The notes below the pieces were generated by a model. That model was given only the letters and a program-made list of their open reading frames with translations, was not told the DNA's origin and ran no database searches. Of a stretch of 34,863 nucleotides of DNA, positions 4,089 to 16,800 are shown in pieces (within the stretch, counting starts at the first letter, position 1; each line of letters starts with the position of its first letter). The stretch comes from Bacteroidales bacterium. GTDB lineage: Bacteria; Bacteroidota; Bacteroidia; Bacteroidales; JAAYJT01. The translations under genes were made by a program, and so were the position numbers. The stretch is taken from assembly GCA_012522795.1 (NCBI GenBank), contig JAAYJT010000049.1, positions 1-34,863 of the forward strand, written 5' to 3'.

Positions 4089-4096
4089 TAACTTTG
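4089..4096 (+). promoter_or_regulatory. Predicted -7 box for the cyclase-like gene
   Basis: TAACTTTG matches TAnnTTTG exactly, 24 bp before the ATG at 4121. The alternative TTG start at 4094 lies inside this box, which argues for the ATG. Confidence 0.45.
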
Positions 4097-4120: not shown

Positions 4121-6199
4121 ATGAATAAAAAAGGTAAGTCGGGATATCATATAGTCAGAATTTATGTGATTTCAATTCTGTTTTATATCATGCTGTTACT
4201 GCCGGTTTTGATTGCATTGTCGTACCAGATGGGTCCAAAATTAATTGAAACCCGCGATAGTGTTTTTAAAGCGATTTTGTGGGTTTTTAAAGATAGTGAA
4301 ATACATAATGATAATATTGCCAGGTTTGAAAACCAAACCATAAAGAATGAGTCAATTGCCAAAAAAGATAAAACTACTGATAACGAACTTATTAAAAGTC
4401 AAAGTAAGGGTAGGAGAGAAGGATTATCGGAAATAGGAAGGAAATTGAAGCAGAATTATAAAACACCTTATTTTACTGCTGTTTCAATTATTGTTGTGGT
4501 TGTTTTCTTATTTACCAGTTTTCTTGCTTTGATCATAAATCTGCCATTGAAAAGATTTTTCAGAAAACTTCGGAAAAACAAAACTATTTCACCACAGCTT
4601 TGTAACTACTGCAAGCCTCTGTTGTTACGTTCGCCCTCAATCAATGCAGGAATTCTATTTTTGAACTTTACTATTCTACATGGGTATATATATTTTGTTT
4701 TGAGAAGCGGAAAAGGCTTTGAGGATATAATATGTTACAACCTGTTCATTCATTTTTTTTATGTTTCAGTTTTTGCGTCTTTATTGGCGGTTTTATTTGT
4801 TTTTCTCTTGCAAAAACACAGGGTTCGGAATATTTATATCGAATATGTTTTTGATGCCGAAGATCTATACAAAAGGAATAAATATTTCCCCAAAAGCGGA
4901 ATTCATACGCATTTTTGGCTTTCAATTGGTTTGACCGTTTTAATTTCTCTTGCTTTAATCATCGTTTATGTTTTTCTGGGTTTGACATCAATTAAGAGTT
5001 TCGGCAATTTAAGCTCAGAACAATTAAAAATACTGACAGGGTATTACTTTGAAAATATTTCTGATAATAATTATTTTACCAAAGAAAACATTAGCAGCCT
5101 TTACTATATAAATGCGATTGATAACATATTGATGATCAGTGGGATAGTTATTACTATCATAGTAATGGTGGTCTTTATGCTTATCCAGATAAAATGGGTA
5201 GTTCTGAGTATTATTACTCCTGTGAAAGAGCTTTCTTACAATATGAAGTGGATTGAAGTAGAGAACACCGATAATTTTACCATTGTCAGGGCTGATGATG
5301 AAATAGGGCAATTATGTGAGCAATGTAATGAAATGACCATCAGGCTTAAAACCCATACTAAAAAGATTAAAGAAATGAATAGGGAGCTGGCAAGTTTTGT
5401 ACCCGGACAATTTTTTAAATTACTGGGAAAGGAAATATTTACTGAAATAAAGCCCGGTGATCAGATCCAAAGAGACATGACTATACTTGTCTCTGAAATA
5501 AGTTCATTTTTTGATGATTCAGAAGAAATAAACTCCAGTGAAGGTATTGAATTACTAAATCAATATCTGAATATTGCAGAACCTTTGATACAGGACAATA
5601 ACGGAGTTATTGACAGGCATTCCGGAGGTTTTGTCATTGCACTTTTCAGTAGAAGCGTTGATGATGCTATTGAGGCCGCTGTGGCAATTCAACAGACAGT
5701 ACGGCAATTCAATGAAAAAAGAAAAGGTTCAAACGAAAAAGAAATAAATATTGGTATGGGCATTCATGCTGGAAGTTTGATTCTGGGAGTCATTGGCAAT
5801 GAAAACAGAATGGAAGGCACTATTATAAGTAAGGCAGTAGATTTTGCCATGAACCTTGGAAAACTAACTAAAACATACGGGAGTACTATACTTATCAGTG
5901 GAGATGCATTGATAAAGCTTGGGAATACGGTTCGCTTCAGATATCGTATACTTGATATGGTAAGTACAAACGAAAAGTCTGGCTTAATTTATATATTTGA
6001 GATACTTAATGGAGAAGAAGAAAAGCTGAGAAAGCATAAGGAAGAAACACGGGATTTATTTGGTAAAGCTGTTGAATTGTTTCACAGTGATAAGCTTGAT
6101 GAGTCATTGGATATATTTCAGAAAATTCTGACAATCAATCCTGAAGATAAGGTTGCAAGGTTCTATTATGAACGTTGCAGCTCAGCAGATAAAGGATGA
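4121..6199 (+). CDS. Six-TM HAMP protein with a degenerate class III adenylate/guanylate cyclase domain and TPR-like tail
   Basis: Membrane protein of 692 aa from the ATG at 4121 (a TTG at 4094 would add 9 residues). About six hydrophobic segments occupy the N-terminal 370 residues, with a charged soluble loop between the first two. A HAMP-like linker follows, then a class III nucleotidyl cyclase fold at about 450-610, then a TPR-like helix pair ending near 690. The fold is clear from LLNQY, GIHAG and GNENRM, but the active site is not. The first metal Asp is Glu (SEIS, E459). The second, normally in a GD pair, is Gly (RHSGGF, G503). The usual DAVN...R segment reads KAVDFAMN. It is therefore probably a catalytically inactive sensor or scaffold. 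The fold call is firm; the inactivity is inferred. Confidence 0.85.
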   Translation: MNKKGKSGYHIVRIYVISILFYIMLLLPVLIALSYQMGPKLIETRDSVFKAILWVFKDSEIHNDNIARFENQTIKNESIAKKDKTTDNELIKSQSKGRREGLSEIGRKLKQNYKTPYFTAVSIIVVVVFLFTSFLALIINLPLKRFFRKLRKNKTISPQLCNYCKPLLLRSPSINAGILFLNFTILHGYIYFVLRSGKGFEDIICYNLFIHFFYVSVFASLLAVLFVFLLQKHRVRNIYIEYVFDAEDLYKRNKYFPKSGIHTHFWLSIGLTVLISLALIIVYVFLGLTSIKSFGNLSSEQLKILTGYYFENISDNNYFTKENISSLYYINAIDNILMISGIVITIIVMVVFMLIQIKWVVLSIITPVKELSYNMKWIEVENTDNFTIVRADDEIGQLCEQCNEMTIRLKTHTKKIKEMNRELASFVPGQFFKLLGKEIFTEIKPGDQIQRDMTILVSEISSFFDDSEEINSSEGIELLNQYLNIAEPLIQDNNGVIDRHSGGFVIALFSRSVDDAIEAAVAIQQTVRQFNEKRKGSNEKEINIGMGIHAGSLILGVIGNENRMEGTIISKAVDFAMNLGKLTKTYGSTILISGDALIKLGNTVRFRYRILDMVSTNEKSGLIYIFEILNGEEEKLRKHKEETRDLFGKAVELFHSDKLDESLDIFQKILTINPEDKVARFYYERCSSADKG

Positions 6200-13116: not shown

Positions 13117-16100
13117 ATGTTCAGGGCAATATTTAATAAAACTGCACGCACAAGATTTATAATTGCACTTGTTATGATAAGTGTGGCAGTTATTATTGGT
13201 TGTTTTGTAACAAGAACAATTAATGAATCCAAATATGTTGATCATGTAAATAGGATTCTGAAAGAAAAATCGGAAATTATTGATAACGAACTTCAAAATC
13301 TGGTTCAGATCCCGGATGATCATCTTTTTACCGGTAGTCCGTGTAAATATGACCGGGTTCAGGGTATTGAATTTCTTTTATATAAAAATGATACACTTGT
13401 ATATTGGTCCGATAATCTAAACGCTACCTCTTATATTTATGATTCGGTTTTATTTTCCAGTAATCTGGTTGAGCTCGGAAATGGGTATTATTACAAACGG
13501 GAATTGATCAGAGATGAAAAAATATATCTGGGCTTATTGTTGGTCCGAAAGAACTATAAATATGAAAATGAGTATATTACGAATGATTTTAATACTTGTT
13601 TTTCTCTTCCTCAAAACACATCAATAAGTTTAACGGAAAACGGAAATGATATAAAAAACGATGATGGAGTATACTTGTTTTCGTTGAATTTTCCGGATAA
13701 AAGAGTTATTAATGAAAACTGTCAGGTTCTTGTACTCTTCATTTATCTGACTTCATTGTTATTTCTGATTTCTTCCTTATTTCATCTATACCAGAGCTTT
13801 AGAAAAATATTCAGAAAATCCGACTGGTTTTTTCTGTTTTTCGTAGTTGATGTAATTATAATCCGTGCTTTGACTTTTTATTTCAGAATTCCCAGAATTC
13901 TATATGCAAGTAAATTATTCAGTCCATCGCATCTGGCAATTTCTAAAATACTTCCTTCTTTTGGGGATCTATTTGTAAATGTAGTTATTGTTTTTCTGTT
14001 AATATACTATTTCTTCACTTATTATAAGTTTAAAAATAAGGCTAATATAAATACAGTTTATAAGAAATTAACAGCTTTTATTTTATTATTAAGTGCCTAT
14101 ATATTTTTCAGATTATTTCAGGGATTATTTTATAAAATAGTAATAGATTCAACCATATCATTCAATCTTGGCAATATTTTCAGTCTTGATCTTATTAGCC
14201 TGCTGGGCTTTATTGCACTTGGGTTAATTGTTATTTCTTATTTCCTGCTGGGTGTAAAACTGAGCCAGACAGCACTGGAAATATCAGGGGATAAACGACT
14301 CTATATTCTTCTTTCAGTTATTACAGCGATGGTATTTTCTTTGCTTACGTTAATCCGTAACGATTTCCAGATTATTCCACCTGTATTCGTTTTTCTTTTT
14401 GTTATTTCTTTTGCTTTATGGAGTAAAAAGGAAGATAAACTATTTGATACTGCAAGAATAGTGATTTATTTATTCGCTTTTACCTTTATTACAACCCTTG
14501 ATCTGCAATTGTTAAATCAATATAAAGAAAAGCAGGAAAGGAAACTTATTGCAATGGAGTTGGCTTCAAACCGCGATGAAATAGTTGAATTTAAATTCAA
14601 ACAAATTGAAAGAGAAATATATAATGATACTATTTTACAGGCTCTTATCCGGGAAGCTTATTTAAAACCTGAAAACGAAAAGAAAGTAATTTCCTATATG
14701 CTGGACAGATATTTCAATGTTTCGTTTTCAAAATTTGATATTCAAATCACAATTTGCTTTCCTGAAAAACAATTATATGTTAAATCTCAGGATTACATAA
14801 TTGATTGTAACACGTTTTTTGAGAATTATATTGAAACTTACGGAGAAGAAACTTATAGCGAAATATTGTATTACATTTTCCCTGGCATAAACTATTTTGC
14901 TCATCTAAAATTTCCCGAGATGGCTGCATCTGGCATGGGTACTGTTTCCGTTTTTATTGAAATAAGTGCAAAGGCAATAGAAAAAGGTCTTGGATATCCT
15001 GAACTACTTATTGATAAGGCATATAAAAAGCCATACGATTTGTTCAATTATTCTTATGCAACATACATGGACGGTGAACTTGTACGTAGTGTGGGAAAAT
15101 ATTCATATGCCATCAAAGAAACTGAAATGCCAGTAAATAAAGATAACTTTAATTTCTTTGATCATCAGGATCATAATCATCTGGTTTATTATTCTGATAG
15201 TAATACCAATATTATTGTAAGCCTTCCAAAGCCCTCATTTTTAAACATAGTTGCGCCTTATTCGTACTTTTTAATCTTTCTTGGACTGTTAAGTTTTATA
15301 TTAAGTCTGATCATTAAAATACGTAACAGAGCTGCACTGCGCTTTGTTAGCTTCCGCTATCGGATACAATTCCTGATGTTTGGTATTATTCTCGTTTCCT
15401 ACCTTGTAATTGGGATTTCGGTTCTGGTTTATATTGTCCGCCTGAATGATAACAAGAATTTCAATGCTTTAAGGGAAAAAAATCATTCGGTACTGGTTGA
15501 GCTTGAAAATAAGCTTTCTTCATATGATAAATTTGATAAAGACGATAGTGAATATCTGAATGATTTATTGACAAATTCATCAATGATATTCTTTTCTGAC
15601 ATCAATCTTTATAATCCTAAAGGTATATTGATTTCATCGAGCAGACCTCAGGTGTTTGAAGAGGGACTTGTTTCGGATCGTATGAACCCTGAAGCATTCC
15701 GACAATTAGCTATTTATCATAAATCGTCATTTATTCACAGAGAATCAATCGGCAGTTATAAATATTTATCGGCATACATGCCTTTTCATAACGATAATTA
15801 CCAAATAACAGGCTATCTGAACCTGCCTTATTTTGCAAAACAAAGTGAATTGCGCCAGGAAATTTCAACTTTTCTGGTAACCTTTACCAATATTTATGTT
15901 GTGCTGATGGCACTGGGGTTGTTTTTTGCCTTACTTCTTTCAGGATATTTATTAAGACCTCTTATGCTGCTAAAAGCCAATTTGCAGAAGCTTAAACTTA
16001 GTGAATCAACTCAAAAGATTGAATGGAAAGGAAATGATGAAATCAGCGAATTAATTGGTGAGTATAACCGGATGACAGAAGAGCTGGTTAAAAGTGCTGA

Positions 16101-16800
16101 ATTACTTGCCCGATCAGAGAGAGAAAGTGCATGGCGCGAAATGGCAAAACAGGTCGCACATGAAATTAAAAATCCTTTGACGCCTATGAAGCTGAGTGTT
16201 CAATACCTGCAAAAAGCATGGAATGACAATGCTCCTGATTGGAATGAGCGTCTTGAAAGATTTTCTCAGACACTGATTCAACAGATAGATTCTCTTTCTG
16301 AAATTGCGTCAGCTTTTTCTGATTTTGCTTCTATGCCGGCTGCTACAAAAACAAAAATTAATCTTGCTGAAGTAATAAATGATTCGGCTTCTTTGTACAA
16401 GGATATCCAGAATATCCGCTTTATTATTTCATCTCCTGATATTGAATCAGACAGTTATATAATTGCAGATAAACGACAACTACTAAGGGTTTTTAATAAT
16501 TTGATACATAATTCAGTTCAGGCTATAGGAAACAAACCAGATGGTATGGTTCAAATAAGATTGAAAAAGGAAAACAATTATTTAATTGCAGAAATTCAGG
16601 ATAATGGTTCAGGAATGAATGATGAACAACGGGCAAAAGTGTTTTCACCTTATTTTACTACTAAAAGTAGTGGAATGGGCTTAGGTCTGGCAATTGTAAA
16701 AAACATTGTTTCAGGAATGGGAGGGAGCATAGAATTTGTTTCTGAGGAAAATCGTGGAACAATCTTCACACTTCGGTTTCCTGTAACTGATAATCTGTGA
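13117..16800 (+). CDS. Large multi-TM sensor histidine kinase, NtrY-like
   Basis: A 1227-aa inner-membrane kinase. The C-terminal transmitter is complete: H-box VAHEIKNPLTPMKLS with phospho-acceptor H1015, N-box NLIHNSVQAIG, G1 DNGSGM, F-box FSPYFTTK and G2 GMGLGLAI. A HAMP linker precedes the H-box (about 935-990). The N-terminal 930 residues are unusual. One TM and a periplasmic segment (about 35-200) are followed by a cluster of about eight TMs (205-470), a second soluble segment (about 475-705), two more TMs, a third extracytoplasmic segment (about 770-910) and a last TM. The H-box resembles NtrY-type nitrogen-sensing kinases. No response regulator lies next to it, so its output partner is unknown. 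Confidence 0.88.
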   Translation: MFRAIFNKTARTRFIIALVMISVAVIIGCFVTRTINESKYVDHVNRILKEKSEIIDNELQNLVQIPDDHLFTGSPCKYDRVQGIEFLLYKNDTLVYWSDNLNATSYIYDSVLFSSNLVELGNGYYYKRELIRDEKIYLGLLLVRKNYKYENEYITNDFNTCFSLPQNTSISLTENGNDIKNDDGVYLFSLNFPDKRVINENCQVLVLFIYLTSLLFLISSLFHLYQSFRKIFRKSDWFFLFFVVDVIIIRALTFYFRIPRILYASKLFSPSHLAISKILPSFGDLFVNVVIVFLLIYYFFTYYKFKNKANINTVYKKLTAFILLLSAYIFFRLFQGLFYKIVIDSTISFNLGNIFSLDLISLLGFIALGLIVISYFLLGVKLSQTALEISGDKRLYILLSVITAMVFSLLTLIRNDFQIIPPVFVFLFVISFALWSKKEDKLFDTARIVIYLFAFTFITTLDLQLLNQYKEKQERKLIAMELASNRDEIVEFKFKQIEREIYNDTILQALIREAYLKPENEKKVISYMLDRYFNVSFSKFDIQITICFPEKQLYVKSQDYIIDCNTFFENYIETYGEETYSEILYYIFPGINYFAHLKFPEMAASGMGTVSVFIEISAKAIEKGLGYPELLIDKAYKKPYDLFNYSYATYMDGELVRSVGKYSYAIKETEMPVNKDNFNFFDHQDHNHLVYYSDSNTNIIVSLPKPSFLNIVAPYSYFLIFLGLLSFILSLIIKIRNRAALRFVSFRYRIQFLMFGIILVSYLVIGISVLVYIVRLNDNKNFNALREKNHSVLVELENKLSSYDKFDKDDSEYLNDLLTNSSMIFFSDINLYNPKGILISSSRPQVFEEGLVSDRMNPEAFRQLAIYHKSSFIHRESIGSYKYLSAYMPFHNDNYQITGYLNLPYFAKQSELRQEISTFLVTFTNIYVVLMALGLFFALLLSGYLLRPLMLLKANLQKLKLSESTQKIEWKGNDEISELIGEYNRMTEELVKSAELLARSERESAWREMAKQVAHEIKNPLTPMKLSVQYLQKAWNDNAPDWNERLERFSQTLIQQIDSLSEIASAFSDFASMPAATKTKINLAEVINDSASLYKDIQNIRFIISSPDIESDSYIIADKRQLLRVFNNLIHNSVQAIGNKPDGMVQIRLKKENNYLIAEIQDNGSGMNDEQRAKVFSPYFTTKSSGMGLGLAIVKNIVSGMGGSIEFVSEENRGTIFTLRFPVTDNL

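Follow-up and report, generated by a model that had tools for sequence, protein, structure and literature searches.

Introduction

In class III cyclase dimers, the metal-binding Asp residues come from one protomer, while the base-specifying and transition-state residues come from the other (PMC4174876; PMC12264004). Some of these domains have lost part of the site and have been kept for dimerization or regulation, as is the case for the C1 and C2 domains of mammalian tmAC and for the fungal protein NeoR (PMC4174876, PMC12264004). NeoR supplies the metal Asp residues to RGC1, and tmAC C1 and C2 likewise retain one half of the site (PMC4174876; PMC12264004). Even when metal-less, as in C2-C2, the domains pair in the same dimer arrangement and can still take up ligand (PMC4174876). 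Among bacteria, Mclx2 (Rv1358) and Mclx3 (Rv2488c) of M. tuberculosis contain cyclase-fold domains without catalytic residues, with the Asn and one metal residue missing from Mclx2 (PMC4452763). Thus, degenerate bacterial cyclase domains are already on record. Here, we examine a receptor gene from a Bacteroidales genome, whose cyclase domain differs from these in both what it has lost and the setting in which it has lost it.

Results

Organization of the receptor gene

The window, by which we mean the whole 34,863-nucleotide stretch of DNA analyzed (contig JAAYJT010000049.1), contains an ORF encoding a 692 aa receptor whose class III cyclase domain is degenerate (4121..6199; this and all other features of the gene given below are on the forward strand). 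Its assignment draws on the ORF, the ortholog set, and the start of the ortholog L003, with which the ATG at 4121 aligns. Residues are numbered from this ATG; an in-frame TTG is also found upstream at 4094. The N-terminal sensor region (aa 14-354; 4160..5182) has six predicted transmembrane segments from hydropathy, in agreement with the number given in the initial annotation, as well as helices in the AlphaFold2 (AF2) model, and it is common to SpoIIE-type proteins. Two longer loops occupy aa 33-120 and 288-335, while the basic loops predicted from the same hydropathy profile occupy aa 140-175 and 231-268. No Pfam family covers this transmembrane sensor, and a comparison of the sensor half alone with solved structures yielded no match at E ≤ 0.001, which does not show that its fold is new. 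The sensor half (aa about 1-430) also recurs in other Bacteroidales genomes (L020, L022, and L025, also L016, L019, and L024), and SpoIIE phosphatase domains were confirmed downstream of it in L020, L022, and L025.

The sensor region is followed by a HAMP-like linker and signaling helix (aa 355-424; 5183..5392). The HAMP linker proposed previously is partly borne out, as aa 323-427 are matched by HAMP-bearing NCBIfam models and Pfam HAMP scores above its cut-off in the ortholog L071, whereas Pfam makes no such call in the window protein. The catalytically degenerate class III cyclase-fold domain (aa 446-633; 5456..6019) comes next, and the protein ends with a C-terminal helical, TPR-like tail (aa 634-692; 6020..6196). 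The tail is helical in the AF2 model, but the case for a TPR is weak, since TPR_1 reached only E 0.06 and 13.6 bits against a cut-off of 27.8.

The cyclase domain and its catalytic residues

Both sequence matches and the AF2 model place the domain in the class III fold. A phmmer search of the cyclase domain matched 2w01 at E 1.9e-14 and, more weakly, OaPAC, bPAC, and CyaB. The AF2 model of the window protein (mean pLDDT 82.5) matched OaPAC, bPAC, Cya2, CyaC, and CyaB with Z about 20-24, including Z 23.9 for OaPAC, 21.6 for Cya2, and 21.1 for CyaC, although the AF2 alignment included intact relatives and the homology-assisted model is therefore compatible with the fold rather than proof of folding. 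With Pfam Guanylate_cyc (PF00211), the window protein scores 19.5 bits, just below the 21.9 cut-off, while its sister ortholog scores 76.9 bits. Judged from these comparisons, the fold core of the domain is kept.

The same cannot be said of the active site, in which five of the six catalytic positions are replaced and T567 alone is retained. The first metal Asp is replaced by E459 (D459E; 5495..5497), the adenine-specifying Lys by R499 (K499R; 5615..5617), the second metal Asp by G503 (D503G; 5627..5629), the transition-state Asn by D574 (N574D; 5840..5842), and the transition-state Arg by N578 (R578N; 5852..5854), while T567 (5819..5821) still occupies the second substrate-specifying position. 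All six residues (D, K, D, T, N, R) are invariant in 77/77 aligned orthologs, whose motifs read F(S/T)DIR, DK(Y/F)IGD, and GTVISDAVNLASRLEGL, in place of VSEIS, DRHSGG, and GTIISKAVDFAMNLGKL in the window protein. By these residues, the orthologs, with K/T in 77/77, are K/T-type (class IIIb) adenylate cyclases, and the window protein is left with neither the two metal Asp nor the transition-state Asn and Arg nor the K/T pair. E459, the G503 of RHSGGF, and the KAVDFAMN segment (aa 571-578) had been noted in the initial annotation and are exact with numbering from the ATG at 4121; K499R is an additional change that it had missed. A shift of the metal Asp was also considered and ruled out, as the ortholog alignment is ungapped across the three motifs, D498 is a conserved family residue, and both D465 and D466 are out of register. 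With no gaps in this part of the alignment, no nearby Asp is able to substitute.

It is conceivable that the Glu at the metal site, aided by compensating residues, could sustain residual cyclase activity or some other catalysis. E459 is still acidic, and Ma1120 has activity even though an Ala takes the position of its transition-state Asn (PMC4215837), but here the second metal ligand is a Gly, the Arg is an Asn, five positions have changed together, and no alternative acidic residue is in register, which makes such activity very improbable. With both metal Asp, the substrate Lys, the Asn, and the Arg gone and all of them kept in every ortholog, the window protein is almost certainly devoid of cyclase activity, as had been proposed from the first reading of the sequence.

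With both halves of the active site lost, neither a homodimer nor a mixed dimer would provide a complete site, and even an intact partner could not restore it. In addition, we found no second class III cyclase in the window genome, which is 97% complete. This also bears upon whether the protein could regulate a different class III cyclase, or inhibit it in a dominant-negative manner, by pairing with it. The composite sites of such a mixed dimer would each miss half of their residues (following the logic of PMC4174876 and PMC12264004), but with no candidate partner found in the genome, we consider this role very improbable. A ligand-gated switch, in which a nucleotide or other small ligand would occupy the degenerate dimer cleft by analogy with the mammalian forskolin pocket, has some precedent, as forskolin occupies both clefts of the mammalian C2-C2 homodimer, which is metal-less (PMC4174876), and the non-catalytic site of fungal NeoR/RGC1 has been proposed to be regulatory (PMC12264004). 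However, the loss of the metal Asp pair, the base-specifying Lys, and the Arg makes the usual binding of ATP or GTP unlikely, and a switch of this type seems improbable; a ligand other than a nucleotide might still occupy the cleft, much as forskolin does in C2-C2 dimers. The nucleotide sensor suggested in the initial annotation is similarly disfavored, since the losses fall precisely on the contacts to metal, adenine, and phosphate.

Distribution of the loss among orthologs

A profile search of 393 genomes from the order identified near-complete orthologs in 54, the window genome included, and full-length orthologs are thus present in 53 of the 392 other sampled genomes. The 77 aligned orthologs, all of which span sensor and cyclase, combine the profile-found loci with loci added from genome contigs. 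The latter were found using peptide patterns containing GFIDK (query A1) and therefore lean toward intact sites, unlike the profile-searched set, for which no such pattern was used. A contig scan using the window domain alone found no loci. Orthologs with the same substitutions were likewise sought, and there were none in the 53 other genomes of the order. Apart from the window domain, the fetched loci contain 143 class III domains, all of which have both metal Asp (where covered), the Asn, and the Arg; across the seven positions tabulated, the window protein alone reads E, R, G, T, K, D, N. The receptor family itself is ordinary, as a six-transmembrane region joined through HAMP to a class III cyclase is a common architecture in Bacteroidales and the sensor half is fused to SpoIIE phosphatases as well, so the earlier suggestion of a new kind of signaling receptor finds no support in the form given. 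The unusual feature is the loss of chemistry in one genome's copy; both of the same-genus genomes (G001 and G002) have an intact cyclase gene.

The window copy can be assigned to this ortholog group by its full-length homology and its shared gene order. Within contig reach, G001, G002, G007, and G042 share with the window the gene order gltX, cyclase gene, DUF4175, ybeY, mnmG, making the cyclase gene a positional ortholog and ruling out a diverged paralog. Also located near mnmG, both here and in relatives, is a gene for a 1227 aa multi-transmembrane histidine kinase (13117-16800 of the window) with a poorly conserved N-terminal part.

Comparison of the neighboring proteins makes G002 and the window genome sisters, and these proteins have not changed faster on the window side. 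For gltX, identity is 73% between window and G002, 62% between window and G001, and 63% between G001 and G002, with corresponding values of 63%, 53%, and 53% for DUF4175. The cyclase gene breaks this pattern (46%, 42%, and 60%), as does the cyclase core to a greater degree (53%, 49%, and 79%), for which the window branch in the tree measures 0.92 substitutions per site versus about 0 for G002. The sensor half is accelerated too, less strongly than the cyclase, at about threefold at second codon positions, which also fits with weakened selection on the whole receptor.

Decay versus maintenance of the gene

The acceleration of both halves raises the main alternative, that of an orphaned receptor in slow decay, in which cAMP signaling has become dispensable, selection has weakened, and the catalytic residues have drifted before any stop was fixed. 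Two further observations are in keeping with this, namely the failure to find another class III cyclase in the genome and the smaller size of the window genome (2.9 Mb, vs about 4.4 Mb for G002). The reading frame argues otherwise. It is open, with no stops or frameshifts in 692 codons, whereas a crude neutral simulation at the observed first/second-position divergence from G002 produced at least 10 stops (10-37, mean 22.7), and still at least 5 (5-23) with half that divergence. Likewise, third codon positions have changed far more than second positions, with window-unique changes at 48/90 third and 36/178 second positions of the cyclase domain; pairwise dS is saturated, so a formal dN/dS is not given.

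The location of the losses is also at odds with drift at random conserved columns. Among the 77 orthologs, 58 columns are ≥95% conserved, and the window protein has replaced 22 of these, while 76/77 orthologs have replaced 0-3. The remaining sequence, from a spirochete (L117), has 16/58 replaced and keeps all six catalytic residues. Of the conserved columns, 13/19 have changed within segments preset around the catalytic residues, compared with 9/39 elsewhere (Fisher p 0.001). The losses therefore cluster at the active-site motifs, where the changes are radical (D503G, D571K, R578N, E580G); elsewhere, several are mild (F476I, L527V, M554I, I591L).

Lastly, the upstream region retains a Bacteroidetes-type -7 promoter motif, TAACTTTG (4089..4096), of the form TAnnTTTG, which has been described as the consensus for the -7 element in Bacteroidetes (PMC7366714). 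The 15-base stretch surrounding it, TTTTATAACTTTGAC, is identical upstream of the G002 ortholog, and motifs similar to TAACTTTG precede four other orthologs. An open frame, a third-position excess, and a kept promoter motif, as seen here in one genome and at saturated dS, would be in keeping with a maintained pseudoenzyme. From these results, the gene is probably kept by selection as a protein, and the evidence from this single genome favors a maintained protein over a decaying one, which we regard as unlikely but deserving of serious consideration.

Other cAMP-related genes

The Crp-like proteins are uninformative about cAMP use: all three in the window genome are without the canonical Glu/Arg-Ser cassette of E. 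coli CRP, and those of the intact relatives lack it as well. Two CYTH proteins, which score 47-50 bits on TIGR00318 (cut-off 57.95), may be a candidate alternative source of cAMP. The window genome carries CYTH (class IV cyclase-like) genes as a nearly identical pair about 21.6 kb apart (L203 and L204, G000:C47:25193-25672 and 46782-47261), while G001 and G002 each have one cyaB-like CYTH copy. G001 also encodes a small stand-alone class III-like cyclase (L182:1284-1931, G001:C45) with weak similarity to Pycsar cyclases (PycC, E 3e-5), and this gene was not found in the window genome.

Discussion

The best explanation as a whole, to which we assign a probability of roughly 0.55, is that the window gene encodes a pseudocyclase receptor that is particular to this lineage, is still maintained, and acts through a non-enzymatic output, its chemistry having presumably been lost in the window lineage after the split from the sister species. 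With five catalytic losses in a gene that is intact in 53 sampled relatives, this lineage probably either uses the receptor in a non-enzymatic capacity or is gradually losing it. For a maintained pseudocyclase receptor, a protein-interaction or conformational output is possible; that the output is protein contact can be proposed tentatively. In such a scheme, signals at the six-transmembrane sensor would pass through the HAMP and signaling helix to a cyclase-fold dimer, which would still assemble through the HAMP and the cyclase fold. Motion of the dimer could then alter its surface or the helical tail, causing a putative partner protein to be bound or released, while no cyclic nucleotide would be made by the protein. 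If so, one lineage would have converted a transmembrane receptor cyclase into a receptor that signals without a second messenger, with protein contact as the sole output of its dead dimer, a suggestion that we put forward even more cautiously.

The intact orthologs of the sister species provide a clean before-and-after pair with which to ask whether a receptor cyclase has a function beyond making cAMP. The Bacteroidales class IIIb orthologs with the same six-transmembrane and HAMP architecture (L003, L004, L071) are the closest comparison, as they share full-length homology and the same helical tail with the window protein and, in several genomes, the same gene neighborhood; where all 77 aligned orthologs read D, K, D, T, N, R, the window copy reads E, R, G, T, D, N. 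Cya2, CyaC, P. aeruginosa CyaB, OaPAC, and bPAC have the domain fold in common with it, but they are catalytically competent with canonical residues, whereas its own are degenerate. The known pseudocyclase domains mostly retain one half of the site and complement a partner. In tmAC C1/C2 and NeoR, each subunit keeps one half and the partner gives the other, while the window protein has lost both, has no partner that we could find, and still keeps its frame and promoter motif. Mclx2 and Mclx3 resemble it as bacterial cyclase-fold domains without catalytic residues (PMC4452763), except that they are soluble proteins with AAA/NB-ARC and LuxR domains and have numerous intact cyclases beside them. 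By contrast, the window receptor is predicted to lie in the membrane, no other class III domain was found in its genome, and, unlike in Mclx2 and Mclx3, both metal Asp are gone together with the Lys, Asn, and Arg. What is new here is thus a membrane receptor cyclase without both halves of its site, while those of its sister species stay intact.
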